Below, in pieces: positions 43,522 through 62,927 of a stretch of 64,000 nucleotides of DNA (the first letter of the stretch is position 1; the number at the start of each line of letters is the position of its first letter). The DNA comes from Actinomycetota bacterium. GTDB taxonomy: Bacteria; Actinomycetota; Actinomycetes; Mycobacteriales; HKI-0501. Position numbers and translations under genes: made by a program. The notes beneath the pieces are model-generated. The model saw only the letters and a program-made list of their open reading frames with translations. It made no database searches and was not told the DNA's origin. Where the stretch lies: assembly GCA_030840805.1 (NCBI GenBank), contig JAVEDU010000110.1:1-64000 (forward strand), given 5' to 3'.

Positions 43522-43677
43522 GGAAGAGTTCCCCTCGCGTCGACTACCGGACCCCCCTGGTGGTACGGCGAGGTCAGCATGACCGGCGCGGAGGCCTGCT
43601 TCCAGCACGAGCGGCGAAGTCTGCCCGATCGGCCTACTCAGCGTTACTAAAGGTGCCTCTAAGATTACTGACCGTCA
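43522..43677 (-). promoter_or_regulatory. AT-rich intergenic region before the PKD gene
   Basis: Bases 43636-43680 are strikingly AT-rich for this genome, with TTACTAAAGG and AAGATTACTG on the plus strand. They lie between the end of the GH26-like gene and the PKD gene, about 115-160 bases upstream of the PKD start. This is the likely promoter of the PKD gene, but I cannot fix the -10 and -35 boxes. Confidence 0.35.
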
Positions 43678-44691: not shown

Positions 44692-44695
44692 CCGG

Positions 44696-46309: not shown

Positions 46310-47170
46310 TCAACGCCGCCATGACGGCGTTCTCCCCCACCAGGCGGCGAGCCGCTCGTCGTACGGCCGGTAGTGCTCGTCGAGGCGCGCCCGCAGCTCG
46401 TCCGGCATCGGCGAGCGCGGCCGGGCGTTGTGCCTCTCGAACTCGATCCCGCCGGCGCTCGGCAGCCCGAGGAACCGTTCCACCTCCGCGAACGCCGGGG
46501 CCGGGTCGTCGAAGAAGTCCTGACTGTCCACAACGCAGAGCCGCTCGCGGCCGAACACGGACTCCAGGTGCTCCAGCTGCTCGATGTACTGCCCGCGCGT
46601 GACGTAGGCGTTGTGCCGCCAGTGGTCGCTGTCGTACCCGGGCTCCGCGCGCAGCTTGTCGACCTCGCCGGCGATCCGGACCGGCTCCAGCTCGAGCGCG
46701 TGGGGAAACTCCTCGGTCTCGAAGCCGCGCGCCTTCTCGTGCGTGTAGGCCGAGTACGCCCGCTCGACCGGGTCACGCACCAGCACGACGAGCCGGACGT
46801 CCGGCAGGTCCACGGCGATCCGCTCCGGCGCCAGCGGGTGGAACATGTAGTACGGGCTCGACTCCCCGGTCACCGCCCGCGGACCGGCCGCGCGGCGCGC
46901 CGCCCGCACGGTCGGAAAGTGCCCCACGTACCACGGCAGGCCGCGGTCGTAGTTCACGTCGAAGTAGTGCACCCCCTTGTGGAACACCGCGGGCATCACC
47001 GAGGGGTGCTGGCCGAGCGTCTTCATCATCGACGTCGTCCCGCACCGCTGGGCACCGACCACCAGGAACCCCGGCCGCATCCGGTGCGTGTGTGTGAGGC
47101 GCCCGACGGCCCGCGTCACCACGCGCACCGTGCGGCGTGCCCTCGTCCGCATCGTCAACGGTCTGCTCAT
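46310..47170 (-). CDS. PAPS-dependent sulfotransferase (stand-alone, heparan-sulfotransferase-like)
   Basis: A 286-residue cytosolic sulfotransferase. The 5'-phosphosulfate loop GAQRCGTTSM (residues 39-48) and the 3'-phosphate motif VLVRDPVERAYSAY match the family that includes heparan-sulfate sulfotransferases and bacterial NodH-like enzymes. KGVHYFD, ESSPYYMF and the C-terminal FLGLP helix are also typical. It should move sulfate from PAPS to a sugar hydroxyl or amino group. The ATG overlaps the TGA of the upstream kinase-like gene (ATGA). The flippase gene follows. It is not closely similar to the other two sulfotransferase domains of this locus. Confidence 0.92.
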   Translation of the reverse strand: MSRPLTMRTRARRTVRVVTRAVGRLTHTHRMRPGFLVVGAQRCGTTSMMKTLGQHPSVMPAVFHKGVHYFDVNYDRGLPWYVGHFPTVRAARRAAGPRAVTGESSPYYMFHPLAPERIAVDLPDVRLVVLVRDPVERAYSAYTHEKARGFETEEFPHALELEPVRIAGEVDKLRAEPGYDSDHWRHNAYVTRGQYIEQLEHLESVFGRERLCVVDSQDFFDDPAPAFAEVERFLGLPSAGGIEFERHNARPRSPMPDELRARLDEHYRPYDERLAAWWGRTPSWRR

Positions 47171-48396
47171 CCCGTACGTCCCCGTCCTGTTCTCGTCAGT
47201 TCCCGCGACAACTGTCCCAGTACCGGCAGCAGCCACTCGCCGAGCCTGCCCAACCGGGCCCCGGCCTCGGCCTGCCCGTCGGCCAGGTACCGCGTGCCCA
47301 GCTCCACGAGGTAGAGCGCGGCCACCACGGGAGCGGCCTCGACCGGTACCCCGAACGGCGCCAGCAGCTCCGCCGCACGGACCACAGTGGACGCGGCCGC
47401 CTCGTCGGCGGGCACCCGCCGCACGGTGATCGCCGTCTGCAGGTCCAGGTGCAGCGCGTCGTATCCGAGCGGTACGCCGGAGTCGAACCGTTCCCAGTCC
47501 CAGATCAGGACCCGGTCGGCGAGCGTGGCCAGGTTGCCGGCGTTCCAGTCCCCGTGCCAGCAGCCGGTCGGCAGCGTGACGGCCGTGGTCACCGCCGCGG
47601 CCAGCGCCCCGGCGAGCGCGGCCCCGCCGGGCCGGTCGCCGAGCGCGTCGACCCGGTCCGCCAGCCCGTCCGTGTACGGCCCGCGAACGGGCTGTTCGGT
47701 GACCCCCGCGACGCCGGCGACCTCGACCATCGCCGCGACCCGGCGCGTCCCGTCGTCCGCGGCGCGCGGCAGCCACACCGGGAGCGCGGACTGCACCAGG
47801 ATCTCGGCGCCGTTCCACGAGCCGTGGTGCAGCACGGCCGGCACCTCGACGCCGCGCAGGGAGTGCCCCGCCAGCATGCGCAGCGCCTCGGCCTCGTCCG
47901 CGACCAGCCGCCGGGTCAGCGGGTCGACGCCGACCTTGGCGAACCCCAGCGGCTCGCCCGCCTCGTCCAGCACCTGGAACACCGGCTTCCGGTTCGCCCG
48001 GGCCGGTCCGATGTGGAGCGCAAGCACGACGGGGCGGCCCAGCACCGCGGCGAGATGGTCCTCGATCGTGTCGCCATGCGGAGCCCGCACCGACAGTCGC
48101 TGACCGAACACCGTTCCGGCCGCCCCGGTCCGGAACAGCCCGGCGAGCACGGCCGTGCGGGCCCGGGCCCGGGCGGTGCGGTGCTCGGTCGCACGGCGCA
48201 CCGCCGCCGCACCGGCCCGGCGGGACCCGGCGGGCACGAGCAGCTTCGGGTTGCCGGCAGACGGGACGAGGACGTAGGTACGGTCGTCGCCGGCCCGCCG
48301 CGCTCCGATGTGGACGGATGCGGGCGGCGGCCAGAGCACGGGCACGAGGCTGCGCAGGTATCCGGCCGCCGACGTGTCCCGCGGCCCGGTGGTCAC
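47167..48396 (-). CDS. APH-fold phosphotransferase in the exopolysaccharide operon
   Basis: A 409-residue protein whose C-terminal half carries the aminoglycoside/choline-kinase catalytic motifs: WHGDWNAGN (Brenner motif with catalytic Asp) and LIWDWERFDSG (metal-binding Asp). The N-terminal 150 residues are atypical and include LVPSAGNPKLLVPAGSRRA. It probably phosphorylates a small sugar or sugar-like substrate. Drug resistance is unlikely because it is translationally coupled on both sides, overlapping the polymerase stop and the sulfotransferase start by four bases each. The exact substrate is unknown. Confidence 0.8.
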   Translation of the reverse strand: MTTGPRDTSAAGYLRSLVPVLWPPPASVHIGARRAGDDRTYVLVPSAGNPKLLVPAGSRRAGAAAVRRATEHRTARARARTAVLAGLFRTGAAGTVFGQRLSVRAPHGDTIEDHLAAVLGRPVVLALHIGPARANRKPVFQVLDEAGEPLGFAKVGVDPLTRRLVADEAEALRMLAGHSLRGVEVPAVLHHGSWNGAEILVQSALPVWLPRAADDGTRRVAAMVEVAGVAGVTEQPVRGPYTDGLADRVDALGDRPGGAALAGALAAAVTTAVTLPTGCWHGDWNAGNLATLADRVLIWDWERFDSGVPLGYDALHLDLQTAITVRRVPADEAAASTVVRAAELLAPFGVPVEAAPVVAALYLVELGTRYLADGQAEAGARLGRLGEWLLPVLGQLSRELTRTGRGRTG

Positions 48397-49856
48397 CGGG
48401 AGTCCCGCGCGGCGCGTGCCGCGGCTCTCCGCTGCAGGTCGTTGCGCCACAGCAGCCCCACCCCGATGAACGACAGCGCGAGCGGCATTCCGATCGCCGG
48501 GTACACCACCATGTAGAACAGCGGCAGCAGCACGGCGAGCCCGCCCGCGATGCCGATGGGCGTGCTGTCCCGTCGGTACCGCCAGGCCACCGCCAGGAAG
48601 AACGCGACATAGCAGAACGCGCCGACGAACCCGTTCTGCAGCAACAGGTTCCAGAGCTGGCCATCGCTGCCCACGTCGCGGTTGCCGCACAGCGGACACG
48701 CCTTCGTGGCACCCACGGCGATCGACTGGTTGCTGCCGATCGTCTGCCGTGTACCGCCGTAGCCGAGCACCGGTGAGCTGACCGCGGCCCGGAACGCGAT
48801 CCCGTTGAGCGAACTGCGGGTGTCGTTGCTGTGCCCGCTGTTGACCCGAGTGGTGATCATGGTCTGGACCGGCGTCGTGACGAACAGCACTGCCGCGACC
48901 GCCAGCCCCGCGGTGAGCCACCCGACCGGAGCCAGCCGCCCCTGCATCGCGAACCGCACGACCACGTACGCCACCGACAGTCCCAGCCCGATCCAGAGCC
49001 CCCGGTTCAGCGAGTACACCACCGGGTACAGCGACACCAGGAGCACCGTCACCGCGACGGCCTTGCGGAGCAGCGACGTGCGCACCAGCCAGCCGACCAC
49101 GAACCACGGCAGCAGCAGGCTGTAGCAGTAGCCCCAGGTGTTCGTGTAGGCGTACGGCGCGGCCGGCCGGCCCACGCCGCCGAGGACGTCCTGGACCTGC
49201 GCGAAGTTGACCGTGGTGAGCCGGCCGACGAAGCCGTTGTCCAGCAGGGATCTCGGCAGGACGTACGACAGCGGGGTCGCGAAGCTGCCGTGCGGGAACG
49301 CCGCGCCGACCACCCCGCCGGCGACGGTGCTGAGGAACAGCACGCCGAGCAGCGAGACGACCAGCCGCCGCGGGACCTCCCGCTCCCACATCGTGCCGAT
49401 CCAGAGCATGACCACGGTGATCGAGGTGTACTGCATGACCCGCAGCACGAACGGCGCGATCTTGATGCCGGCCGGCGGCATCGTCGCGGGCGCGGTCTCG
49501 CCCAGCACGAGGAACCCGAGCAGCACCCACACCAGCAGCAGCGCCCACAGCCCGAAGCCGGGCGGGAACCGCAGCCGCCGGCGCCGGAGGAGCTGCACGG
49601 CCATCGGGGCAGCGGCCCCCACGAACGCGAACGTGGTGAGCCCGAGCGCCCACCAGATCGGATATCCGGCCAGCAGCACGACGAGCGGCCAGGCCGTCGG
49701 GATCCGGACCAGGGCCGGCACGTCCGGGCGGCGCCGGGCCGGGGTGGACGCCGCGTGCTGGGGGCCCTCCGAGCGCGGTGCTCCGGCGTCGTGCGGCGAC
49801 CCTGCGGCCGGGGGCGGCGGCGGCTCGCCCGTCGTGGGCCACCGCGTCTGCGTCAC
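48393..49856 (-). CDS. O-antigen ligase/Wzy-type polymerase
   Basis: A 487-residue membrane protein. The first 55 residues are a Pro-rich cytosolic tail, then about 12 helices. A large outer loop lies in the C-terminal half and contains RSSLNGIAFRAAVSSPVLGYG, the Wzy_C/WaaL-type loop, followed by ACPLCGNR, an unusual CxxC motif. SLNRGLWIGLGLSVAYVV is the flanking helix. It should polymerise flipped repeat units (Wzy) or ligate glycan. GTG 49856 follows GGGAGG. It lies 43 bases after the Wzz-like gene and overlaps the kinase-like gene by four bases. Confidence 0.85.
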   Translation of the reverse strand: MTQTRWPTTGEPPPPPAAGSPHDAGAPRSEGPQHAASTPARRRPDVPALVRIPTAWPLVVLLAGYPIWWALGLTTFAFVGAAAPMAVQLLRRRRLRFPPGFGLWALLLVWVLLGFLVLGETAPATMPPAGIKIAPFVLRVMQYTSITVVMLWIGTMWEREVPRRLVVSLLGVLFLSTVAGGVVGAAFPHGSFATPLSYVLPRSLLDNGFVGRLTTVNFAQVQDVLGGVGRPAAPYAYTNTWGYCYSLLLPWFVVGWLVRTSLLRKAVAVTVLLVSLYPVVYSLNRGLWIGLGLSVAYVVVRFAMQGRLAPVGWLTAGLAVAAVLFVTTPVQTMITTRVNSGHSNDTRSSLNGIAFRAAVSSPVLGYGGTRQTIGSNQSIAVGATKACPLCGNRDVGSDGQLWNLLLQNGFVGAFCYVAFFLAVAWRYRRDSTPIGIAGGLAVLLPLFYMVVYPAIGMPLALSFIGVGLLWRNDLQRRAAARAARDSR

Positions 49857-49899
49857 GGGGTGCCCACCTCCCACTGCACGTCGGCCGGTCCGCGCACGA

Positions 49900-51738
49900 T
49901 CAGCGCGAGCGGGTGCCGCGGGACCCCGATGCCAGGTCGGTGTCGCCCTGGCCCTCGGGCCGGGCCGGACCCGGCGACTCGGCGTCGCCGTGGGTGAAGA
50001 CGAACGTGACCGTGTCGTCGTCCTGGAGCGGGTGGACCGGCGTGTCGCGCGCGTCCGGCGCGGCGGAGGCCCGGACCACGTCGGCACGGCCCGTCGCGGG
50101 CTCCGTGACCACCGGGTGGGGCGGCGCGGCCACCGGGCCGGGCTCGGCGGCACGGGGCGCCGGCTCGGCGGCGACCGGAGGGCCCGCCGCCCGCGTCCGG
50201 TCGGTCCCGGCGCGCGGCGCCTTGCCGAGGAACCCGACCACGACGGCCCCGACGAGCCGCGCCCGGACCTCCTCGAACCGGCGGAACGACTCCGCGAGCT
50301 CCTGCGTGCGGGTCCGCTTCGTCTCGACGACCACCAGCACGGCGTCGGCGTACCCGGCCATCACCTGGCCGTCGATCGCGACGTCCGGCGGCGGGGCCTC
50401 GAACAGTACGTACCCGGACCGGCCCCGCAGCTCGGCGACGAGGCCTCGCACCCGGTCCTCGCGCATCTCCTGGGTCAGCACGCCGGTGGCGTCGGCACCG
50501 CCGGGGCCCAGCACGACGAGTCGTGACCGGTCCGCCACCTCGGTGACCGCGGCGTCCAGGCTCAGCTCACCGCGCAGCACCTCGACGAGTCCGGGTCCCG
50601 GCTGCACGCCCAGCGCGTCGAGGGTCCAGGAGCGCGGATCCGCGCAGATCACGAGCACCGGGACGCCGAACCGGTCCAGCGACGCGGCGAGGTTCGCGGT
50701 GACCAGGCCGGCCGCCTGTCCGGCGGACGCGCCGGACATCACGACGATGCGGGCCTGGGCGTCCGTCGCACCGCCGTCCCCGGCGAGCGCCGAGGCGAGC
50801 GTGTTCCGGAGCCGGCCGAAGTCCCGGCCGGCCGCACTCTGGTAGGTCGCCACGTCGGGCGGACCGCCCCGGCGGAAGTCGAGCAGCACCGGCATCCCGG
50901 TGCGGGTCGTGACCTCGGCGGCCCGGCGGAGACGGGTGTCCGCCCGGTCGATCAGCAGCGCGAGCAGGAGCCCGGCGAGCACGCTCGCGGCGAGCCCGGT
51001 GCCGAGGTTCAGCACCAGCTTCGGCTCGGTGGGCGCGGTCGGCAGTTCCGCCTTCGTGATGATCGAGCCGGGCGTCGGCTCGGCCGCCTGCAGGGGGCTC
51101 AGCCGGGAACCGATCTGGGTGAGGCTGTTCTGCACCACCGCGAGCTGGGACTCGGCGCGGTTGCGGTTGACCGAGTTCGGCGCCAGCTGGGCGATCTGCC
51201 CGGACAGGTCCTGGAGCGCCTTCAGCTGGGCGGCCTGCTGCTTCTCCAGGGCGGTGACCTGGGCGGTGATCTCGTCCTGGGCGTTCGCCCGGCGCTGGTC
51301 CAGGTAGGCCTGCGCGAACGCCGCCGAGCCCGCCCGCGCCTCGCTCGGCGTCGGCGCGGCGAACGCGATCTCGAGCACCTGCGTGTTGGCCGGGACGGTC
51401 ACCGACACCCGCCGCGCGAGTTCCGTCGCCGACGTCCCGCTGCCGAGCTGCTCCTTGGCGCGCTCGGCGACCACGAGGGAGGTCACCAGCTGCGCCTCGG
51501 TGTCGAGGTTGAGTCCGGAGATGTTGCGGGCACCGGTCTGGGTCTGGTCGGTGCTGGTCCCGGTCGCCTGCACGAGTACCGCGCTCGAGGCGTCGTACAC
51601 CCGCTGCTGCCGGGCCGTGACGACCCCGGTCGCGACGAGCCCGAGCACGACGACGGCCACGATCGCCCACCACCGGCGCTGGATCCAGCCGGTGTAGTCG
51701 ACGATGGAGCGCGAGCCCTCCTCGTGCAGCGAATCCAT
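49900..51738 (-). CDS. Wzz-like chain-length protein with degenerate BY-kinase domain
   Basis: A 612-residue membrane protein. Transmembrane helices near 25-45 and 250-270 flank an extracytoplasmic domain with a coiled coil (about 140-215, Gln/Ala-rich), as in Wzz/CapA co-polymerases. The cytosolic part resembles a bacterial tyrosine kinase, but the Walker A site reads SGASAGQAA (335-343) without Lys, and Walker B is VLFEAPPPD. The tail is Pro/Ala/Glu-rich and lacks a Tyr cluster. ATP-dependent autophosphorylation is therefore unlikely, and it probably acts as a structural chain-length regulator. The start is ATG 51738; it is the first gene of the operon running to the GH26-like gene. Confidence 0.87.
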   Translation of the reverse strand: MDSLHEEGSRSIVDYTGWIQRRWWAIVAVVVLGLVATGVVTARQQRVYDASSAVLVQATGTSTDQTQTGARNISGLNLDTEAQLVTSLVVAERAKEQLGSGTSATELARRVSVTVPANTQVLEIAFAAPTPSEARAGSAAFAQAYLDQRRANAQDEITAQVTALEKQQAAQLKALQDLSGQIAQLAPNSVNRNRAESQLAVVQNSLTQIGSRLSPLQAAEPTPGSIITKAELPTAPTEPKLVLNLGTGLAASVLAGLLLALLIDRADTRLRRAAEVTTRTGMPVLLDFRRGGPPDVATYQSAAGRDFGRLRNTLASALAGDGGATDAQARIVVMSGASAGQAAGLVTANLAASLDRFGVPVLVICADPRSWTLDALGVQPGPGLVEVLRGELSLDAAVTEVADRSRLVVLGPGGADATGVLTQEMREDRVRGLVAELRGRSGYVLFEAPPPDVAIDGQVMAGYADAVLVVVETKRTRTQELAESFRRFEEVRARLVGAVVVGFLGKAPRAGTDRTRAAGPPVAAEPAPRAAEPGPVAAPPHPVVTEPATGRADVVRASAAPDARDTPVHPLQDDDTVTFVFTHGDAESPGPARPEGQGDTDLASGSRGTRSR

Positions 51739-51887
51739 CCCGGGGTTCCTCACTGGAATGCAGGTGGACAGCGGCGGCATGTCCTGCGGCCAGCATAAGC
51801 GCCCACCCCGAGCCGCCCGGTCGTCTTGTCCGATCCCGTCCGGACGGACGACTCCGTTCGGACCGGACGTCCAGCTAGGCTCGGCCG

Positions 51888-52814
51888 ATGCGCGTCGGCT
51901 ACCTCATCCAGAGCCATCGGGACCCGGAACAGGTGGCGCGGCTCGTCCGCACCCTCAAGGCCGGCAGCCCCGGCGCGGCCGTCCACGTGAGCCACGACTT
52001 CTCGTCGTCGCCGCTCGACGTGGCCGCGCTGACCGCCGTTCCGGGGGTGCTCGTGCGCCCCGCGGAGGGCGGGTACGGCGACTTCAGCCACGTGCGGCGG
52101 TACCTCGACGCCGTCGACGACCTCGTCGCCGAGGGCATCGCGGTGGACTGGGTCGTCAACATCACCGGCCAGGACTACCCCCTCCGGCCGGTCGCGGACG
52201 CGGAGGCGGATCTCGTCGCGGGCGGCGCGGACGGGTACCTGGAGTACTTCCCGGCGATGGACCCCGCCCGGAGCACGTGGCCGGTCCGGCGGGCGCGGTC
52301 GCGGTACCTGTTCCGGCACCGCCGCATCGCCACGCTGTCTCCCGCCGCGAAGCGCCGGCTCCGTCCGCTGCAGGCGATCAACCGGGTCCAGCCCCTCGTG
52401 CGCGTCCACGTGTCCTACGGGCTGATGGTGGGCGTGCGCCGGCGGTCACCGTTCGGCCCGGGCTTCGAGCTCTACGGCGGGTCGGCGTACTCGTCGCTCT
52501 CCTGGCCGGTCGTGGCGTACCTGCGGGAGTTCTGCGCCGCCCGGCCGGACCTGATGCGGTACTACGAGCAGTGCCTGTCCCCGGTCGAGTCGATCTTCCA
52601 GACGATCCTGGTGAACAGCGGGCGCTTCACCCTGGTGGACGACTGCAAGCGGTACTTCGACTTCCGCGACAGCACGATGAACCACCCGAAGTTCCTCTCG
52701 GTGGCCGACCTGCCGAGGGCGCTGGCGAGTGGCGCCGACTTCGCCCGCAAGATCGACGACCCCGGGGTGCTCGACGCCCTGGACGCCCGGCTCGCGAGCA
52801 GCGGTCAGCGGTAG
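51888..52814 (+). CDS. GT14-type glycosyltransferase (core-2/I-branching and xylosyltransferase family)
   Basis: A 308-residue cytosolic glycosyltransferase. It begins MRVGYLIQSHRDPEQVARLV and contains NITGQDYPLR (from Asn91), the hallmark of the GT14 branching-enzyme family, plus SYGLMVG and CLSPVESIFQTILVNS with the conserved C-terminal acidic block. Animal relatives add GlcNAc branches or the xylose that starts heparan and chondroitin chains; bacterial members act in capsule and exopolysaccharide loci. The donor sugar cannot be read. It starts at ATG 51888, divergent from the Wzz-like gene, and overlaps the convergent sulfotransferase by ten bases. Confidence 0.87.
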   Translation: MRVGYLIQSHRDPEQVARLVRTLKAGSPGAAVHVSHDFSSSPLDVAALTAVPGVLVRPAEGGYGDFSHVRRYLDAVDDLVAEGIAVDWVVNITGQDYPLRPVADAEADLVAGGADGYLEYFPAMDPARSTWPVRRARSRYLFRHRRIATLSPAAKRRLRPLQAINRVQPLVRVHVSYGLMVGVRRRSPFGPGFELYGGSAYSSLSWPVVAYLREFCAARPDLMRYYEQCLSPVESIFQTILVNSGRFTLVDDCKRYFDFRDSTMNHPKFLSVADLPRALASGADFARKIDDPGVLDALDARLASSGQR

Positions 52815-53779
52815 CCGAACCGCCGCCGCAGCGGCCACGTCACCGCGGACACGAACCGGCGCAGCGACGACGGCAGGGCGGTACGCCACTCCTCGTCCAG
52901 CCGCAGCGGCATGAGGCCGGTGCGCATCCGGACCCGGCCGCCCGCGACCGTGTGGGACTCGCCGAGTCGCAGCCCGTCGGGGGTGAGGATGCCGGACAGG
53001 TCCGGCTCCGGGCCCCCGGTCGACACGGCGGCGACGCGGCGCAGGGCGGCCGCCGGTTCCCGCACGAGGTCCTCGTACCGCACGAGCACGGTCGGCACCC
53101 CGAGCCGGCGCAGCGTCGCCGTCATCAGCGTCACGGTCACCCACCGGCGGCTGATCTGCCGCGGCGAGCGCTGGTTCATGTACGGCTTCGGCGCCGCGCC
53201 CGCCGGCATCTTCACCTGCTTGGTCCACGAGTACACGACCCCGCGCGGGTCCCGGACCACGTGCACGAGCCGCAGGTCGATGCCCGGCGCGCGCCGCAGG
53301 ATGTACGCCAGCGACGGCCGCTTGGTGGAGTCGACCACGACCTCGGCCCCGGACACGGTGGCGATCGCGGCGTACAGCGCGGTGAGGACCTCGGTGTACT
53401 CGTCGAGCCGGCTCCGGAAGCCCGGCAGGCGCCGCGCGCCGAGGATCGCCGGGAGGCGGGACGTCCGGTCCACGTCGGCCTGCAGCGCGAGCACCCGGCC
53501 CGTGTCCACACGGTCCCAGCCGCCGAAGGCGACCCGGCCGACCTCGGTCCAGAACGGGCAGGCGCCGAACCGTTCCCCGCACGCGCACAGCAGGTCCCGT
53601 TCGACCCCGTCGCGCCAGAGGTAGAAGAGCTCGCCGACATCGCAGTGCGCCGGGAGCTGGCCGAGCATCAGGTCGAGCAGCGTCGAACCGCTACGCGCCA
53701 TCCCGCCGATGTAGAGGACACGGACGGGGTGGGGGCGGGCGGCTCCGGACGGACCCGCGCCCTCGGCGCTGCTCACCAC
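52805..53779 (-). CDS. PAPS-dependent sulfotransferase with CxC-x6-C motif
   Basis: A 324-residue cytosolic sulfotransferase. The 5'-phosphosulfate loop is IGGMARSGSTLLD (residues 24-36), and the 3'-phosphate motif is VVRDPRGVVYSWTKQ. Cys65, Cys67 and Cys74 form CACGERFGACPFW, repeated almost exactly in the C-terminal half of the fusion protein at 54419, so the two are close paralogues. VVVDSTKRPSLAY is the usual central motif. Two GTG codons in tandem are possible starts; 53779 is the first. A hairpin covers the GGGAGG Shine-Dalgarno. The Cys trio may bind a metal. Confidence 0.92.
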   Translation of the reverse strand: MVSSAEGAGPSGAARPHPVRVLYIGGMARSGSTLLDLMLGQLPAHCDVGELFYLWRDGVERDLLCACGERFGACPFWTEVGRVAFGGWDRVDTGRVLALQADVDRTSRLPAILGARRLPGFRSRLDEYTEVLTALYAAIATVSGAEVVVDSTKRPSLAYILRRAPGIDLRLVHVVRDPRGVVYSWTKQVKMPAGAAPKPYMNQRSPRQISRRWVTVTLMTATLRRLGVPTVLVRYEDLVREPAAALRRVAAVSTGGPEPDLSGILTPDGLRLGESHTVAGGRVRMRTGLMPLRLDEEWRTALPSSLRRFVSAVTWPLRRRFGYR

Positions 53780-53945: not shown

Positions 53946-54422
53946 GTGCGCGGTTCGCCGAGTTCGGACGCCGGAGATCTGCTCTTCGTCGGCTCGAGCG
54001 GTGGACACCTTGCCCAGCTGGTGGCACTGCGGCCCTGGTGGGCCGGCCGGCGGAGGCGCTGGGTCACCTTCCGCACCCCCGACGCCGAGTCGCTGCTCGC
54101 CGGCGAGAGCGTCGAGTGGGCGTACCACCCGACCACGCGCCACGTCGGCAACCTGCTCCGCAACACCGTGCTCGCCGCGCGCACCCTGCGCCGGTACCGT
54201 CCCGACGCGATCATCTCGACCGGGGCCGGGGTGGCGCTGCCGTTCTTCGTCCTCGGCCGGCTCGCCGGGATCCCGACCGTGTACATCGAGGTGTACGACC
54301 GGATCGAGACCCGGACGCTCACCGCGCGCCTGTGCCGACCCTTCACCTCCGCTCTGCTCGTGCAGTGGGACGAGCAGCTGCGGCTGTACCGCGGTGCCAC
54401 CCTGGTCGGGCCGCTGCTGTGA
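53946..54422 (+). CDS. Alg14-like glycosyltransferase subunit (PssD/CpsF type)
   Basis: A 158-residue protein resembling the N-terminal acceptor-binding half of two-part GT28 enzymes (Alg14, PssD, Cps14F). LLFVGSSGGHLAQLVALR is the Gly-rich first loop, and STGAGVALPFFVLGRLAG the second, with a hydrophobic segment for membrane association. It normally recruits an Alg13-like catalytic subunit, which is encoded by the next gene in overlapping frame (GTGA). GTG 53946 follows GAGGAGG by seven bases. The pair usually adds the second sugar of the lipid-linked repeat unit. Confidence 0.9.
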   Translation: MRGSPSSDAGDLLFVGSSGGHLAQLVALRPWWAGRRRRWVTFRTPDAESLLAGESVEWAYHPTTRHVGNLLRNTVLAARTLRRYRPDAIISTGAGVALPFFVLGRLAGIPTVYIEVYDRIETRTLTARLCRPFTSALLVQWDEQLRLYRGATLVGPLL

Positions 54423-55915
54423 GCGACTCCCTCGTGGTGATGGTCCTCGGCACGGACGTCCACCGGTTCGACCGCGCGGTCGAGTGGCTCGACCGCTGGC
54501 TCGCCGACCAGCCCCAGCCGGCTCCCCGCTGCATCGTGCAGCACGGCTCGGCGGCGGCACCGCGGCTCGCCGAGGGCCGGGACTTCCTCGACCACGCCGA
54601 GCTCCAGCGGCTCATGGCCGAGGCCACCGTCGTCGTGGCCCACGGCGGCCCGGCGACGATCACCGAGGCCCGGCGTACGGGCCACCTCCCGATCGTGGTG
54701 CCCCGCGACCCCGGCCGCGACGAGCATGTCGACGACCACCAGCAGCGGTTCGCCCGCCGGCTGGACGAGGCCGGCCTGGTGCACGTGTGCGAGACCGAGG
54801 AGGCGCTGCGGGCGACGCTGGACCGGGCGGTCGCCGACCCGGACGCGTTCGCGGTGGCCACCCCGGAGGAGGCCGCCGACGGCACCGCGCCGGTGAACGA
54901 GGCGGTCCGAGCGGTCGGCCGGGTGGTCGACGGGCTGACGGCCGCACGGCGGCGCTCGTGGCCGCGCCGGCGCCGTCGTCCACGCCGCGACCTGCGCGTG
55001 CTGTTCGTCGGCGGGCTCGGGCGCAGCGGCTCGACGCTCGTCGACCGGATGCTCGCCCAGATGCCGGACGTGGCGTCGGTCGGCGAGCTGGTCCACATCT
55101 GGGAGCGGGCCGTCCGCGACGACGAGCGCTGCGGCTGCGGCGAGGCCTTCTCGGCGTGCCCGTTCTGGCAGAAGGTCGGCCAGCTCGCGTTCGGCGGCTG
55201 GGAGAACATCGACGTGGACGAGGTGCTCCGGCTGAAGGCGCTCGCCGACCGCACCCGGTTCGTCCCGGCGCTCGCGCTGCCGCGGCTCTCCGCGCAGCGG
55301 CGCGCGGACGTCGTCGCGTACACCTCCTACTTCGCCGCGATCTACGCCGCGGTGCGCGAGGTCAGTGGCTGCGACGTCGTGGTCGACTCGAGCAAGCACG
55401 CCTCGCTGGCGTTCGCGCTGCGCTGGGCGCACGAGATCGACCTACGGGTGCTGCACCTCGTCCGGGACGCCCGCGGCGTCGCGTACTCGTGGTCCAAGCG
55501 GGTGCTGCGCCCGGAGGTCGTCGGCGACGAGCAGTACATGACGCAGTACTCCCCCGCCGAGGTCGGCGTGCTGTGGACCGCGCAGAACGCGGCCTTCGGC
55601 GTCCTGGACGCGACCGGCGTGCCGGTGCTCCGGCTGCGGTACGAGGACGTGCTCCGCGATCCCGGGGCGGCGCTGGCGCGGCTGCGCCGGCACGCCGACC
55701 TGGGCGAGCGGGCGGACGCGCTGGACTTCCTCGGCGCCGGTGGCATCGACCTCGACGTGGACCACACGGTCGCGGGGAACCCGATGCGGTTCCAGACCGG
55801 ACACGTCCCGCTGCGGGCCGACGACGAGTGGCGGACGAAGCTGCCGCGCGGTCACCGCCGGCTGGTCTCGGTGCTCACGCTGCCGCTGCGCCTGCGGTAC
55901 GGGTACCTCCGGTGA
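54419..55915 (+). CDS. Fusion of an Alg13-like glycosyltransferase and a sulfotransferase
   Basis: A 498-residue bifunctional protein. Residues about 1-165 are the Alg13/PssE-type catalytic half of GT28: MVLGTDVHRFDRAV and VVVAHGGPATITEARRTGHL with VPRDPGRDEHVDDHQ. An Arg-rich linker (about 175-192) leads to a complete sulfotransferase, with P-loop GGLGRSGSTL (198-207), Cys238, Cys240 and Cys247 in CGCGEAFSACPFW, VVVDSSKHASLAF, and 3'-phosphate motif LVRDARGVAYSWSKR. The frame has no break between the parts. The start GTG overlaps the Alg14-like gene and the stop overlaps the GT2 gene, so all three are coupled. The fusion suggests that one sugar is added and then sulfated at once. I know of no described equivalent. 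Confidence 0.92.
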   Translation: MSDSLVVMVLGTDVHRFDRAVEWLDRWLADQPQPAPRCIVQHGSAAAPRLAEGRDFLDHAELQRLMAEATVVVAHGGPATITEARRTGHLPIVVPRDPGRDEHVDDHQQRFARRLDEAGLVHVCETEEALRATLDRAVADPDAFAVATPEEAADGTAPVNEAVRAVGRVVDGLTAARRRSWPRRRRRPRRDLRVLFVGGLGRSGSTLVDRMLAQMPDVASVGELVHIWERAVRDDERCGCGEAFSACPFWQKVGQLAFGGWENIDVDEVLRLKALADRTRFVPALALPRLSAQRRADVVAYTSYFAAIYAAVREVSGCDVVVDSSKHASLAFALRWAHEIDLRVLHLVRDARGVAYSWSKRVLRPEVVGDEQYMTQYSPAEVGVLWTAQNAAFGVLDATGVPVLRLRYEDVLRDPGAALARLRRHADLGERADALDFLGAGGIDLDVDHTVAGNPMRFQTGHVPLRADDEWRTKLPRGHRRLVSVLTLPLRLRYGYLR

Positions 55916-56829
55916 CCGCGCCGTCGCATCCCGCCGTCGACGTCGTGGTGCCGACCCGCGACCGTCCGGAGATGCTCCGGGAGGCACTGGACGCGATCGT
56001 CGGCCAGGACTACCCCGGGACGATCACGGTCCGGCTGGTCTTCGACCAGAGCCCGCCGGACGCCGCGTTCGCCCTCGACACGCCGGACCGGCGGGTGGTC
56101 CTGCTGACGAACGACCGGACGGCCGGGCTGGCGGGTGCGCGGAACACCGGGATCCTCGCGTGCACGGGCGAGTTCGTCGCGTTCTGCGACGACGACGACA
56201 GGTGGCTCCCGGGTAAGCTCCGGGCGCAGGTCGCCGCGGCGGAGCCGGCCGACGAGCTGGTGAGCTGCGGGATCCGGGTGCGGTACGACGACCGGCTGGT
56301 CGACCGTCCGCTGACCGCGACCCAGGTGACGCTGGCCGATCTGCTCCGGTCCCGGCTCACCGAGCTGCACCCGTCGACGTTCCTGTTCCGCCGCGCGACG
56401 CTGGCCGACGGGATCGGGCTGGTGGACGAGCAGATCCCGGGCAGCTACGGGGAGGACTACGAGTTCCTTCTCCGGGCCGCCCGCCGCGCGCCGATCCGCA
56501 ACCTCTCGGACGTGCTGGTCGAGGTCCGCTGGCACCGCCGCTCGTACTTCAGCAGCCGGTGGGACACCATTTCCACGGCGCTCCAGTGGCTGCTCGACCG
56601 GTACCCGGAGTTCCACGGCGAGCCGCGGGGCCGGGCCCGGGTGACCGGGCAGATCGCGTTCGCGCGGGCGGCGGCCGGGCAGCGGCGCGACGCCGTGCGG
56701 TGGGCCGGGCGCACCCTGCGCGGCAACGCCCGGGAGCCCCGCGCCTACCTCGCCCTCGCGGTGGCCACCGGGGCCGTGAGCGCGGACGCGGTGCTGCGGA
56801 TGCTGCACACCCGCGGCCGGGGCATCTGA
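55912..56829 (+). CDS. GT2-family glycosyltransferase
   Basis: A 305-residue GT-A fold enzyme. VDVVVPTRDRPEMLREAL is the nucleotide-binding start, ARNTGILACTGEFVAFCDDDD contains the metal-binding acidic cluster (Asp93-Asp96), and PGSYGEDYEFLLRAARR carries the ED catalytic base region. It acts in the cytosol, adding a sugar to the growing lipid-linked unit. No C-terminal membrane helix is evident; the last 60 residues are helical and Arg/Ala-rich. It is coupled to the Alg13-sulfotransferase fusion through GTGA. A palindromic repeat follows its stop. Confidence 0.92.
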   Translation: MTAPSHPAVDVVVPTRDRPEMLREALDAIVGQDYPGTITVRLVFDQSPPDAAFALDTPDRRVVLLTNDRTAGLAGARNTGILACTGEFVAFCDDDDRWLPGKLRAQVAAAEPADELVSCGIRVRYDDRLVDRPLTATQVTLADLLRSRLTELHPSTFLFRRATLADGIGLVDEQIPGSYGEDYEFLLRAARRAPIRNLSDVLVEVRWHRRSYFSSRWDTISTALQWLLDRYPEFHGEPRGRARVTGQIAFARAAAGQRRDAVRWAGRTLRGNAREPRAYLALAVATGAVSADAVLRMLHTRGRGI

Positions 56830-56912: not shown

Positions 56913-57011
56913 AACGCGGGGTATGGGATGGATCTCCGGGGAGGTTGTCATGTCCACCTGCCCCACATGTCAGACTGACGAAGTAGGAAAGCCGTGCGAG
57001 TGAGGAGACCG

Positions 57012-58322
57012 ATGGGCCGGGACGCGTCCGACACCACCCTGGACGGCGCCTCCCTCGACGACCTCGAGCTGCTCCTCGGTGGCGCCTATGCGCCGCTGAC
57101 CGGGTACCTCGCGGCCGACGAGGCGGCGCGGCTGCGAGAGACCGGCCGGCTCGACGACGGCACCGCGTGGCCGCTCGCGCTCACGCTGGCCGCCGCCGAC
57201 GGCGCCGCTCCCGGCGTACCGCTGGTCCTGCTCGATCCCGAGGGCGCCCCGGTCGGCCGGGTCACGGTCACCACGGTGGCCGCCGGGCTGGTCGCCGGGC
57301 CGGTCGAACAGGTGGCGCCGCGGGAGGTGGCCACGTTCGGGTTCCTGCGACGGCCCGCCCGCGAGGTGGCCGCCGAGGTGAGCGGCCCGGTGCTCGGCGT
57401 ACCCGTCGACGGGCCGTTGTCCGTCGCCCAGCTCGACCACCTCGCCTCGGTGGCCGCGTCGCTGGGTGCGCGCGTCCTGCTGCTCCCCCTGGTCGGCGCG
57501 GGCCGGCCGGAGGACCCCGACGCGCTCGTCCGGATGACGCTCGCCGCCGCGGCCACCCTCCCGTCGACGGTGCGCGTCGTCGCCGTACCGCTGCCCGCCC
57601 GGCCCGAGACGGTCGACGCTCCGCTGCGGGTGCACGTCGCCGCCGCGTACGGCGCCACACACGTCGTGTCGGCGGTCCCCGCCGCCGCGGTGCCGGTGAT
57701 CGCGCCGGTGGTCGACCCGGAGCCGGTCCATCCCGACGCCGTCGCCGCCGAGCTCCGCCGCACCCACCCGCCGCGGACCGAACAGGGGCTGACCGTGTTC
57801 TTCACGGGCCTGTCCGGCTCCGGGAAGTCGACGATCGCCCGGGCCCTCGCCGGCCGGCTCGCCGAGCGGGGCGACCGGACGGTCAGCCTGCTCGACGGCG
57901 ACGTGGTCCGCCGCAGCCTGTCCGCCGGCCTGGGATTCTCGCGCGAGGACCGCGACCGGAACGTCACCCGCATCGGCTGGGTCGCCGCCGAGGTCACCCG
58001 GCACGGTGGCGTCGCGGTGTGCGCACCGATCGCCCCGTACGAGTCCGTCCGCGCCGAGGTCCGGCGGATGGTCGCGCGGCACGGCGGGTTCGTCCTGGTC
58101 CACGTTGCCACCCCGATCGAGGAGTGCGAGCGGCGCGACCGCAAGGGGCTGTACGCCAAGGCCCGCGCGGGCGTGATCCCGGCGTTCACCGGGGTGTCCG
58201 ACCCGTACGAGGTACCGGCCGACGCCGATCTCACGATCGACACGACCGGGCTGACGATCGCCGAGGCGACGGACCGGGTACAGCGGCTGCTCGTCGATGC
58301 CGGCTGGCTGCGGGAGGCCTGA
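57012..58322 (+). CDS. cysC: APS kinase with an N-terminal ATP-sulfurylase-like domain
   Basis: A 436-residue enzyme that phosphorylates adenylyl sulfate to PAPS. The C-terminal domain (about 262-436) is a complete APS kinase: GLSGSGKSTIA with Lys272, GLGFSREDRDRNVTRIGW, APYESVRAEVRRM and KGLYAKARAG. The first 255 residues resemble ATP sulfurylase: LELLLGGAYAPLTGYL is its PUA-like start. The catalytic QxRNPxH motif is absent, so this part should be inactive and perhaps regulatory, since CysDN is encoded nearby. ATG 57012 is preferred because TGAGGAGACCG precedes it; GTG 56994 is possible. The TauE-like gene follows two bases later. Confidence 0.9.
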   Translation: MGRDASDTTLDGASLDDLELLLGGAYAPLTGYLAADEAARLRETGRLDDGTAWPLALTLAAADGAAPGVPLVLLDPEGAPVGRVTVTTVAAGLVAGPVEQVAPREVATFGFLRRPAREVAAEVSGPVLGVPVDGPLSVAQLDHLASVAASLGARVLLLPLVGAGRPEDPDALVRMTLAAAATLPSTVRVVAVPLPARPETVDAPLRVHVAAAYGATHVVSAVPAAAVPVIAPVVDPEPVHPDAVAAELRRTHPPRTEQGLTVFFTGLSGSGKSTIARALAGRLAERGDRTVSLLDGDVVRRSLSAGLGFSREDRDRNVTRIGWVAAEVTRHGGVAVCAPIAPYESVRAEVRRMVARHGGFVLVHVATPIEECERRDRKGLYAKARAGVIPAFTGVSDPYEVPADADLTIDTTGLTIAEATDRVQRLLVDAGWLREA

Positions 58323-58324
58323 GC

Positions 58325-59278
58325 GTGGACTGGATGATGGCCGGTGCCGGCTTCTTCGTCGGCATCGTCGTCGGGCTGACCGGGATGGGCGGCGGGGCGC
58401 TGATGACGCCGATGCTCGTCCTGGGCTTCGGCGTGCCGCCGCTCGCCGCGGTGTCCTCGGACCTGCTCGCGTCGTTCGTGATGAAGCCCATCGGAAGCAT
58501 CGTGCACCTGCGCCGCGGCACCGTGCACCTGAAGATGGTGGGCTGGCTGATGGTCGGCTCGGTGCCGAGCGCGTTCGCCGGCGTGCTGATCCTCAAGGCG
58601 CTCGGGGACAGCGAGCAGGTGCAGAACGCCGTGAAGACGTCCCTCGGCGTCGCGCTGCTGCTCGCGACCGCGGGGCTGATCGGCAAGGCGTACCTGCAGA
58701 TGCGGGACAAGGCCCGGCGCCGCCGCGGCGAGCTGCCGCCCCGGCCGCCGGCCGGCACACCCGTGCTGGTCCGGCCGCTGGCCACCGTGATCGTCGGCGT
58801 CGTGGGCGGGCTCGTGGTCGGGATGACCTCGGTCGGCTCCGGATCACTGATGATCATCGCCCTGATGATGCTGTACCCCGCGCTGTCCGCGTCGCGGCTC
58901 GTCGGCACCGACCTGCTCCAGGCGGTGCCGCTGGTCGGCGCCGCGGCGCTGGGGCACGCGTTCTTCGGCGACCTGCACCTGGACCTGACCGTGGCGCTGC
59001 TGATCGGCAGCGTTCCCGGGGTGTACCTGGGCTCGCGGATCTCGTCCCGGGCGCCGCAGGGCATCGTCCGGCGGGCACTCGCGCTGGTGCTGATCGCGTC
59101 CGGGCTGAAGCTGCTCGGGGTCGGCACCGTGGAGTTGGCCTGGGCCGTGCTCGCGGTGTGTGTCGCCGGACCGCTGGCGTGGGCCTGGGTCCGGTCGCGG
59201 CAGGGCCTGGCGCCCGTCGCGTTCCTGGAACGGAAGAGACGGCCGGCGGAGCGGGATCTGGAGCCGTCGGCGGGCTGA
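58325..59278 (+). CDS. TauE/SafE-family sulfur-anion permease
   Basis: A 317-residue membrane protein with about eight helices in two similar halves, separated by a basic cytosolic loop (KARRRRGELPPRPPAG). GLTGMGGGALMTPMLVLGFG and GMTSVGSGSLMIIALMML are the paired glycine-rich motifs of the TauE/SafE (DUF81) family. Members move sulfite, sulfonates or related anions. Two bases after the APS kinase gene, with GGGAGG seven bases before its GTG, it is probably co-transcribed. Sulfate supply for the locus is the likely role, but direction and substrate are unproven. Confidence 0.85.
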   Translation: MDWMMAGAGFFVGIVVGLTGMGGGALMTPMLVLGFGVPPLAAVSSDLLASFVMKPIGSIVHLRRGTVHLKMVGWLMVGSVPSAFAGVLILKALGDSEQVQNAVKTSLGVALLLATAGLIGKAYLQMRDKARRRRGELPPRPPAGTPVLVRPLATVIVGVVGGLVVGMTSVGSGSLMIIALMMLYPALSASRLVGTDLLQAVPLVGAAALGHAFFGDLHLDLTVALLIGSVPGVYLGSRISSRAPQGIVRRALALVLIASGLKLLGVGTVELAWAVLAVCVAGPLAWAWVRSRQGLAPVAFLERKRRPAERDLEPSAG

Positions 59279-59968: not shown

Positions 59969-61234
59969 TCAGGCGGCCTGGACCACGATCCCGGCCGCGA
60001 CGGTCCGGTTGGTGCCCTCGTCCACCAGGATGAACCCGCCGGTGGAGCGGTTGCGCCGGTACTCGTCCACGAACAGCGGCTGCGTGGTCCGCAGTGTGAT
60101 CCGGCCGATCTCGTTGAGCGCGAGGTGCCCGGGCGCCTCGTCGCGGTGCAGCGTGTTGACGTCCAGGCGGTACTGGATGTCCCGCACGACGGCCCGCACG
60201 TTCCGCGTCGTGTGCTTGAGGGCGTACTTGCGCCCGGGCTCGATCCTGGCCTGCTCGTCCATCCAGCAGATCATCGCCTCGACGTCCTGCGCGGCATGCG
60301 GGGCGTTGTGCGGCCGGCAGATCATGTCGCCGCGCGAGACGTCCAGCTCGTCGGCGAGCCGGACCACGACCGACATGGGCGGGAACGCCTCGTCCACCGG
60401 TCCGTCGGCCGTGTCGATCGCCTCGATCCGCGTGGTGAAGCCGCTGGGCAGGATCATGACCTCGTCACCGGGCTTCATCACGCCACCGGCGACGGTGCCG
60501 GCGTAACCCCGGTAGTCGTGGTGCGTCGCGGACTGCGGGCGCACCACGTACTGCACCGGGAACCGCACGTCGACCAGGTTCCGGTCGCTGGCCACGTGGA
60601 CGTTCTCCAGGTGGTGCAGCAGCGACTGACCGTCGTACCAGGGCATGTTCTCCGACCGCGTGACGATGTTGTCGCCGTGCAGCGCGGAGATCGGGATGAC
60701 GGTCAGGTCGGGGATGTCGAGCTTGGCCGCGAAGGCGGTGAACTCGTCCTTGATCTCCTCGAACCGCTCCTGGGAGTGGTTGACGAGGTCCATCTTGTTC
60801 ACCGCGAGGACCAGGTGCGGCACCCGCAGCAACGTCACCAGGAAGGCGTGCCGGCGCGACTGCTCCACCAGCCCCTTGCGGGCGTCGACCAGCACGATCG
60901 CGAGGTCCGCGGTGGAGGCGCCGGTGACCATGTTCCGGGTGTACTGGATGTGCCCCGGGGTGTCGGCGATGATGAACTTGCGCTTCGGCGTCGCGAAGTA
61001 CCGGTACGCCACGTCGATCGTGATGCCCTGCTCCCGCTCGGCCCGCAGGCCGTCGGTGAGCAGCGCCAGGTTCGTGTACTCGTCGCCGCGGTCCCGGCTG
61101 GTCTTCTCGACCGCGTCGAGCTGGTCGGTGAAGATCGCCTTCGAGTCGTACAGCAGCCGGCCGATCAGCGTGCTCTTGCCGTCGTCCACCGACCCGGCCG
61201 TGGCGAACCGCAGCATGTCCATGTCGTGGCCCAT
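59969..61234 (-). CDS. cysN: Sulfate adenylyltransferase large subunit CysN
   Basis: A 421-residue GTPase that drives the CysD reaction ATP + sulfate to APS + PPi. GTPase motifs are G1 AGSVDDGKST, G3 DTPGHIQYT and G4 NKMDLV, followed by EF-Tu-like beta-barrel domains 2 and 3. No APS kinase is fused at the C-terminus, unlike mycobacterial CysNC; a separate APS kinase is encoded at 57012. It starts at ATG 61234, two bases after the cysD stop. It is the last gene of the operon that starts upstream with the priming transferase. Confidence 0.96.
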   Translation of the reverse strand: MGHDMDMLRFATAGSVDDGKSTLIGRLLYDSKAIFTDQLDAVEKTSRDRGDEYTNLALLTDGLRAEREQGITIDVAYRYFATPKRKFIIADTPGHIQYTRNMVTGASTADLAIVLVDARKGLVEQSRRHAFLVTLLRVPHLVLAVNKMDLVNHSQERFEEIKDEFTAFAAKLDIPDLTVIPISALHGDNIVTRSENMPWYDGQSLLHHLENVHVASDRNLVDVRFPVQYVVRPQSATHHDYRGYAGTVAGGVMKPGDEVMILPSGFTTRIEAIDTADGPVDEAFPPMSVVVRLADELDVSRGDMICRPHNAPHAAQDVEAMICWMDEQARIEPGRKYALKHTTRNVRAVVRDIQYRLDVNTLHRDEAPGHLALNEIGRITLRTTQPLFVDEYRRNRSTGGFILVDEGTNRTVAAGIVVQAA

Positions 61235-61236
61235 GT

Positions 61237-62142
61237 CTAGAAGTACCCCTCGCGCTTGCGGTCCTCCATGGCGGAGTCGCTGACCTTGTCGTCCCCGCGG
61301 GTGGCCCCGCGTTCGGTGAGCCGGGTGACGGCGATCTCCTCGATGATCTTCGGCAACGTGTCCGCCTCCGACCGCACCGCCGCGGTCAGCGTGGCGTCCC
61401 CGACGGTCCGGTAGCGGACCGTCGCGGTGAACACGTCCTCGCCGTCCCGCGGCACCGCGAACTCGTTCGCGGCGAACACCATCCCGTCGCGAAGGAACAC
61501 CTCGCGCCGGTGGGCGAAGTAGATCGACGGGATCTCGATGGCCTCGCGCTCGATGTACTGCCAGATGTCGAGCTCGGTCCAGTTGGACAGCGGGAACACC
61601 CGGATGCTCTCACCCAGGTGCACCCGGCCGTTGTAGAGGCTCCACAGCTCGGGCCGCTGCGCCTTCGGGTCCCACTGGCCGAACTCGTCGCGGAACGAGA
61701 ACACCCGTTCCTTGGCCCGGGCCTTCTCCTCGTCGCGCCGCGCCCCACCGAACAGCGCATCGAACTTGTGCTTCTCCGCGGCGTCGAGGAGCACCGGCGT
61801 CTGGATCCGGTTGCGGGAACCGTTCGGCTCCTCGCGCACGAGACCCTTGTCGATGCCCTCCTGCACGCTCGCGACGATCAGCTGCACACCGAGCTCGGCG
61901 ACCCGCTTGTCCCGGAACTCCAGGACCTCGGGGAAGTTGTGGCCGGTGTCGACGTGCATCACCGGGAACGGGATCGGTGCGGGCGCGAACGCCTTCTCGG
62001 CGAGCCGCAGCATCACGATCGAGTCCTTGCCGCCCGAGAACAGCAGGCACGGCCGCTGCATCTCCGCGGCGACCTCCCGGAAGATGTGGATCGCCTCGGC
62101 TTCCAGGGTGTCCAGCTGGCTGAGCCGGTAGTTCGAGGTCAC
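61237..62142 (-). CDS. cysD: Sulfate adenylyltransferase small subunit CysD
   Basis: A 301-residue PP-loop ATPase that forms APS with CysN. The PP-motif LFSGGKDSIVML is near residue 35, and MHVDTGHNFPEVLEFRD, FGGARRDEEKARAKER and FPLSNWTELDIWQYI are signatures of CysD rather than of PAPS reductase. The C-terminal MEDRKREGYF is conserved. The GTG overlaps the cysQ stop by four bases (GTGA). It is in the sulfated-polymer locus rather than beside cysH or cysI. Confidence 0.97.
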   Translation of the reverse strand: MTSNYRLSQLDTLEAEAIHIFREVAAEMQRPCLLFSGGKDSIVMLRLAEKAFAPAPIPFPVMHVDTGHNFPEVLEFRDKRVAELGVQLIVASVQEGIDKGLVREEPNGSRNRIQTPVLLDAAEKHKFDALFGGARRDEEKARAKERVFSFRDEFGQWDPKAQRPELWSLYNGRVHLGESIRVFPLSNWTELDIWQYIEREAIEIPSIYFAHRREVFLRDGMVFAANEFAVPRDGEDVFTATVRYRTVGDATLTAAVRSEADTLPKIIEEIAVTRLTERGATRGDDKVSDSAMEDRKREGYF

Positions 62143-62927
62143 AGGCCTTCTCCGGTCGGGCGGACGGCGTCGAGGATCGCAGGTGCCAGGGCAGGCGAAC
62201 AGACGATCAGGTCGGGCAGCAGGGGGTCCGGCTGGTTGTACCTGAGCGGCGAGCCGTCCAGCCGCGACGTGAAGAGTCCGGCGGCCCGGGCCACCGCGGC
62301 CGGGGCGGCGGAGTCCCACTCGTACTGGCCGCCGCCGTGCACGTACGCATCGACCTCGCCGAGGACCACGGCGGAGACCTTGACGCCGGCGGAGCCCATC
62401 GGCACCAGCTCAGCGCCCAGCCGCTCGGCCAGTGCCGTCACGAAGGCCGGTGGCCGACTCCTGCTCACAGCAAGCCTCAACGCGCCGTCGGCCCGAACCG
62501 GTGTCACCGGCGGCACATCGGTGGCGAGGGTCACGCCCCGGGCGGGAAGCGCCACGGCCCCGGCGATCAGCGTGCCGCGCTCCCACAGGGCGACGTGCAC
62601 GGCCCAGTCGGTGCGCCCCTCCTCGGAGAACTCCCGGGTGCCGTCGAGCGGGTCCACGATCCACACCCGGTCCGCGCCGAGCCGGACCGGGTCGTCGGCC
62701 CCCTCCTCGGACAGGACCGCGTCGCCGGGCCGCAGCGCGGCCAAGCGGGCCATCAGCAGCTCGTGCGAGGACCGGTCACCCGCGGCCTTGAGCGCGGCCG
62801 GGTCGGCGAAGCCGGTGGCCGCGCGCACCTCGAGGAGGAGCCGGCCGGCCTCGTCCGCGAGGAGCCGCGCCAATGCAGCGTCGTCTGCGGCGCGACCGTC
62901 TGGTCGCGCCGTGGGATCGGTCTGCAT
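62139..62927 (-). CDS. cysQ: 3'(2'),5'-bisphosphate nucleotidase CysQ
   Basis: A 262-residue Mg-dependent phosphatase of the inositol-monophosphatase superfamily. VLSEEGADD, VWIVDPLDGTREFSEEGR and the YVHGGGQYEWDSAAPAAV motif are the metal-binding landmarks of the actinobacterial CysQ type. It hydrolyses PAP, the sulfotransferase by-product and inhibitor, to AMP. The ATG overlaps the TGA of the priming transferase gene by one base (TGATG), and its stop overlaps cysD by four. Placement between priming and sulfate activation genes ties it to sulfation. Confidence 0.92.
   Translation of the reverse strand: MQTDPTARPDGRAADDAALARLLADEAGRLLLEVRAATGFADPAALKAAGDRSSHELLMARLAALRPGDAVLSEEGADDPVRLGADRVWIVDPLDGTREFSEEGRTDWAVHVALWERGTLIAGAVALPARGVTLATDVPPVTPVRADGALRLAVSRSRPPAFVTALAERLGAELVPMGSAGVKVSAVVLGEVDAYVHGGGQYEWDSAAPAAVARAAGLFTSRLDGSPLRYNQPDPLLPDLIVCSPALAPAILDAVRPTGEGL

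Follow-up and report, generated by a model that had tools for sequence, protein, structure and literature searches.

A PssE-type glycosyltransferase half fused to a sulfotransferase in a putative Wzx/Wzy sulfated-polysaccharide locus of Actinomycetota

Introduction

Bacterial sulfated polysaccharides are said to be nearly confined to cyanobacteria (PMC13390465), and marine Vibrio and Cobetia have been reported to make sulfated capsules as well. The literature searched contained nothing on when, or on what, sulfate is added to these polymers. In wps-1 of Actinoplanes missouriensis (PMC13390465, 2026) the conserved series comprises a GT2 glycosyltransferase (WpsA), a sulfotransferase (ST; WpsB), a GH26 hydrolase (WpsE), Wzx, a second ST (WpsH), a kinase-like protein (WpsI), Wzy (WpsJ) and Wzz (WpsK), and a sulfurylase/APS kinase gene adjoins the locus. 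Sulfation of the wps-1 product is predicted, and without any one of the wps-1 genes other than wpsD, sporangium formation or spore release is abnormal; losing WpsB has a mild effect, and loss of WpsH or of the neighbouring sulfurylase/APS-kinase gene damages the sporangium severely (PMC13390465). Synechan (xss) and other cyanobacterial sulfated-polysaccharide clusters similarly combine Wzx/Wzy machinery with dedicated sulfotransferases, although in another phylum and under other regulators, and the excerpts of PMC13125312 that describe them mention no fused glycosyltransferase-ST.

PssD/PssE, EpsE/EpsF and Cps14F/G are split GT-B enzymes encoded by small adjacent genes, with a GGH motif in the first half and a GT28-type C-terminal half as the second. 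EpsE/EpsF adds Glc or Gal through a beta-1,4 linkage to lipid-linked Glc, Agl24 requires the histidine of its GGH motif, and in the fusions described for the Alg13/Alg14 superfamily one half is joined to the other, with no ST present (PMC8993221). Here we describe a locus of the same split-enzyme type in which, in contrast to PssD/PssE, EpsE/EpsF and Cps14F/G, the PssE half carries a sulfotransferase.

Results

The locus lies in the window, the 64,000-nucleotide stretch of contig JAVEDU010000110.1 (assembly GCA_030840805.1) that was analysed, and spans positions 43678–63997. Its gene content suggests that it is very probably a complete Wzx/Wzy-type locus for a sulfated polysaccharide, forming slime or matrix. 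On the reverse strand are encoded a GH26-like glycoside hydrolase corresponding to WpsE (43678–44748; PF02156), a Wzx-type flippase matching MatE and Polysacc_synt (44696–46288), a third sulfotransferase, ST3, which is WpsH by position (46310–47164; PF00685 and synteny), and a kinase-like protein of no clear Pfam family, WpsI by position (47167–48510, start approximate). These are followed by a Wzy-like polymerase corresponding to WpsJ (48507–50060, ends approximate; PF04932 below cut-off) and a Wzz-like chain-length protein corresponding to WpsK (49900–51780; PF02706 just below cut-off), and the assignment of these last three genes draws on synteny. A Core-2/I-branching-like glycosyltransferase (51888–52814, forward; PF02485 just below cut-off) precedes a second, divergently transcribed sulfotransferase paralogue, ST2 (52805–53779, reverse), which is 46% identical to the fused ST domain and keeps its divergent position before PssD in two Micromonospora loci (L005, L006) and in L121 and L122. 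The GH26-like hydrolase lies within a biosynthetic cluster and is present in related loci too, where it ranges from a single copy to several. At the cluster edge a large PKD-repeat protein (40444–43608, reverse), perhaps a matrix or surface protein, recurs beside L114–L117, L119, L156 and L159.

On the opposite side of the cluster lie genes for PAPS supply. An APS kinase whose N-terminal part is of the sulfurylase-type PUA kind (56994–58322, forward; Pfam and NCBIfam) is the sole APS kinase encoded in the genome; Pfam detected no ATP-sulfurylase catalytic domain in it, although relatives are annotated as bifunctional, and the CysD/CysN pair would supply that activity. CysN (59969–61234) and CysD (61237–62142, start placed from its match to the CysD model), the large and small sulfate adenylyltransferase subunits, are both NCBIfam assignments on the reverse strand. 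They are accompanied by a TauE/SafE-type permease (58349–59278, forward; PF01925), a CysQ-like 3'-phosphoadenosine phosphate phosphatase for PAP removal (62139–62930, reverse; PF00459, TIGR01331 below cut-off) and an initiating phosphoglycosyl transferase of the Bac_transf family (62927–63997, reverse; PF02397). A CysH-like reductase is encoded elsewhere in the genome, outside the cluster. Homologous loci have the same gene set.

Window genes were matched to Wps proteins by order and domain through genomes G343 and G363, which show the wps-1 order; the fused ST domain takes the position of WpsB. Wzx, Wzy, Wzz, GT2, at least two STs, the kinase-like gene and GH26 all occur in the conserved order, the Wzy and Wzz assignments resting partly on synteny. 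GT26 (WpsC) is absent within the window and PssD and PssE stand in its place, and the ST of wps-1 is described as a separate protein (PMC13390465).

The gene of interest (54419–55915, forward strand) has a GTG start and is, as the first-pass annotation had reported from the letters alone, one uninterrupted open frame of 498 residues joining two domains; the frame, Pfam domains and predicted fold all bear this out. Its start at GTG 54419 overlaps the stop of PssD (54420–54422) by 4 nt, as GTGA, and its stop (55913–55915) overlaps in the same way, also as a 4-nt GTGA, the GTG start at 55912 of the GT2 glycosyltransferase gene (55912–56829, forward; PF00535), so that both of the flanking overlaps reported earlier were found. 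The N-terminal, donor-binding half (54419–54919) matches Glyco_tran_28_C (PF04101) at residues 61–143 (2.7e-12, over cut-off), with HGGP at residue 75 and DDHQ at 105. NF041548 (PssE/Cps14G) aligns over residues 8–137 with 54.4 bits against a curated cut-off of 120 bits, and the WelK C-half aligns over residues 6–149, also below its curated cut-off. The upstream partner half, PssD/Alg14-like (53946–54422, forward; 158 residues), carries GSSGGH (His21), matches PF08660 over cut-off and aligns over its full length with NF041549 (PssD/Cps14F) at 103.4 bits against a curated cut-off of 110; the GGH motif is found in 21 of 21 PssD homologues. Both halves thus stay under the NCBIfam equivalog cut-offs, and the N-terminal half of the fusion is best called PssE-like on its sequence, not a certified PssE/Cps14G equivalog. 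PF04101, PF08660, the GGH motif and the fold of a GT-B C-terminal half together place the pair in the GT28-type split GT-B enzymes (EpsE/EpsF, Alg14/Alg13 superfamily). The label Alg13-like given earlier is therefore valid at superfamily level, and PssE/EpsF is the closer name, the nearest curated NCBIfam models being bacterial polysaccharide enzymes as opposed to Alg13/Alg14 proper, whose defining reaction is the transfer of GlcNAc from UDP-GlcNAc to GlcNAc-PP-dolichol.

The C-terminal domain, ST1 (54992–55912), has a Sulfotransfer_3 match (PF13469) across residues 195–428 (3.5e-12; 47.5 bits, cut-off 27). Both the 5'-phosphosulfate loop (GG.GRSG.T; GGLGRSG at residue 198) and the 3'-phosphate motif (VRD; VRDARG at 348) of PAPS-dependent sulfotransferases are present, with RYED at 407, and ST1 presumably uses PAPS. 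An AlphaFold2 model of the whole protein (mean pLDDT 80) displays a GT-B C-terminal half, with Foldseek matches to such halves, and a sulfotransferase fold. A sequence search of solved structures with the fusion gave no match and a fold search was needed; the top Foldseek matches of the ST half were tyrosylprotein sulfotransferases (E 1.6e-6) and curacin/olefin-synthase sulfotransferase domains, with modest TM-scores (0.5–0.64 by target), and both kinds differ from the ST half in substrates. The two domains are joined by a linker (54938–54991, residues 174–191) in which 10 of 18 residues are Arg or Lys, and which is predicted disordered and modelled with pLDDT below 50 (residues 176–189). GC by codon position has the pattern of coding sequence through both domains, with the third position mostly at 0.93–1.0 and a fall to 0.78 across this Arg-rich linker only.

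A frameshift near 54900–55000 could in principle have made one gene out of two. In the +1 frame a stop at 54936 is followed by the next one only at 55233, and the +2 frame stays open as far as 55915. A single base inserted or deleted in the linker therefore cannot conceal an end of PssE ahead of the ST motif, and no one-base indel yields a pair of genes with a sensible overlap. The PssE frame can be aligned with separate PssE proteins up to VVDGL-AARR (about 54950). A substitution alone could hide a stop, for instance at the TGG of 54962–54964 (W182), which is one change away from a stop and is followed by an in-frame GTG at 54998. That two genes have been merged by assembly or sequencing is nevertheless extremely improbable, given that the single-frame architecture recurs in 10 other genomes. 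The fusion had earlier been held to be genuine on the strength of the flanking overlaps; it is real, but the overlaps alone are insufficient and the homologues supply the proof.

Whole-genome searches spanned the order, the class and the phylum, a count of about 1,200 genomes that includes some sampled twice. With the window included, they gave single-frame PssE-ST fusions in 11 genomes, which belong to 9 families (the others being G022, G622, G403, G404, G456, G439, G421, G499, G979 and G871). Both Pfam domains were matched in 8 aligned fused proteins and in two more. The 8 aligned homologues are 42–56% identical to the window protein, and both motif sets are invariant in them. Their linkers differ in length and composition, and the Arg-rich linker, rightly noticed in the first-pass annotation, is peculiar to the window genome. 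In G421 a break close to the 3' end of the fused gene (L117, 9034–10160) divides the ST part between two frames, reflecting a broken gene or an assembly error. In many relatives PssE and ST are separate genes with a 4-nt overlap. These include two Micromonospora matches (residues 6–497, 60%) that were considered as fusions and rejected, as each consists of a pair of genes that are read in different frames and share 4 nt (GTGA); separate overlapping genes also occur in G014 (ATGA) and in the PssE-bearing loci of family f15. A search of a plasmid collection gave no record covering 80% of the query. Literature searches, with most subscription journals outside their scope, returned neither a glycosyltransferase-sulfotransferase fusion nor a PssD/PssE pair with a sulfotransferase. 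PssE-ST adds a new domain architecture to a type of locus that has been recognised only recently, without amounting to a new kind of system.

GT2 is the most constant neighbour of the sulfotransferase. Among 53 loci with recognisable ST neighbours, GT2 adjoins ST in 50 and PssE in 31, while a GT26 enzyme (WecG/TagA/CpsF) stands beside ST in place of PssE in 16, one of these being Pfam-confirmed; 6 loci have neither PssDE nor GT26 close to ST. The loci examined at length comprised 25 with PssD and PssE and no GT26, 6 with GT26 and no PssDE, and none with both. In L150–L153, L155 and L161, GT26 occupies the PssD-PssE place beside the same ST-GT2 pair. PssDE and GT26 probably fill the same step, since enzymes of both kinds are known to put the second sugar on a first one that is already lipid-linked, and ST and GT2 persist through their exchange.

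In a tree of ST domains, those of the window, G622 and G022 are placed among GT2-adjacent STs, while that of G871 lies inside a clade of STs adjoining PssE as separate genes (support 100/98). A single clade of all fused STs was rejected (p-AU 0.0005, for a group defined by architecture but tested after a first tree). Thus fusion or fission, gain and loss not being separable in this tree, has recurred with more than one ST lineage. Such recurrence argues for a probable functional coupling of the two steps. In four loci (L127, L135, L138, L158) a tandem pair of STs separates PssE from GT2; the PssE-side ST falls in a distinct clade, one member of which is fused to PssE in G871.

Discussion

The reading that we prefer, with a probability of about 0.62, is that the locus directs synthesis of a Wzx/Wzy-type sulfated exopolysaccharide in which the growing lipid-linked oligosaccharide receives sulfate from the fused ST, either ahead of the GT2 step or at about the same time. 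The initiating transferase would place sugar 1 on undecaprenyl phosphate, and PssD and the PssE domain, as one split GT-B enzyme, would add sugar 2 from a UDP-sugar; the known donors of PssD/PssE relatives are UDP-Glc, UDP-Gal or UDP-GlcA. PAPS made by CysD/CysN and the adjacent APS kinase would feed the fused ST, with CysQ clearing PAP, and the sulfated unit would then be flipped and polymerised, in what we infer to be this order of steps. The fusion may substitute for the translational coupling of overlapping genes, giving a 1:1 ratio and keeping ST beside the membrane-bound PssD:PssE site.

An alternative is that ST acts at the GT2 step, preparing the acceptor for GT2 or modifying the sugar that GT2 adds, in which case the link with PssE would mainly reflect operon position and the fusion would serve stoichiometry or recruitment to the membrane, with no need for the substrates of the two parts to match. 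The near-constant pairing of ST with GT2 speaks for this explanation, as it embraces the 16 loci with GT26 for PssDE and the 6 with neither close by; where two STs separate PssE and GT2, the GT2-side and PssE-side STs also differ in tree position. In every fusion seen, however, the partner is PssE and not GT2, and different ST lineages have become fused to PssE, so we hold action at the GT2 step to be unlikely. The fusion might also be neutral, an indel in overlapping genes having produced read-through between two independent enzymes, with ST sulfating whatever it meets. A 4-nt overlap as the unfused state, the predicted disorder of the linker and the variable length and composition of linkers would all suit such an origin, yet recurrence in 9 families and long retention, at 42–56% identity to the window protein, make neutrality improbable.

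The first-pass annotation had proposed that the sugar added by the Alg13/14-type complex is the one sulfated, at the lipid-linked stage. The second part of this proposal fares well. PssD directly upstream and the presence of PAPS genes in the Wzx/Wzy locus itself point to cytoplasmic sulfation of an undecaprenyl-linked intermediate, and the lipid-linked stage is likely. The identity of the sugar, in contrast, is unsupported as it was put. Recurrent fusion to PssE favours the PssDE-added sugar, but the stronger attachment of ST to GT2 (50 against 31 of 53 loci) and the survival of ST in loci with GT26 and no PssDE weaken it, leaving this sugar a possible target, at somewhat short of even odds; the substrate of ST could be the first sugar, the second sugar or the acceptor that GT2 sees. 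It is possible, at somewhat less than even odds, that PssD and PssE-ST work at the membrane as a single machine, which adds a sugar and then, before release, sulfates this very sugar on the undecaprenyl carrier; such a machine would have evolved more than once, as different sulfotransferases became joined to the same half of the glycosyltransferase.

That half of a glycosyltransferase occurs naturally fused to a sulfotransferase draws attention to one step and offers a defined target for assay, and the exchange of PssDE and GT26 at one locus position makes the order of steps testable. The occurrence of PssE-ST shows that such loci are widespread in Actinomycetota. If sugar and sulfate are indeed transferred by one machine, the stage at which bacterial sulfated polysaccharides receive their sulfate would be settled.
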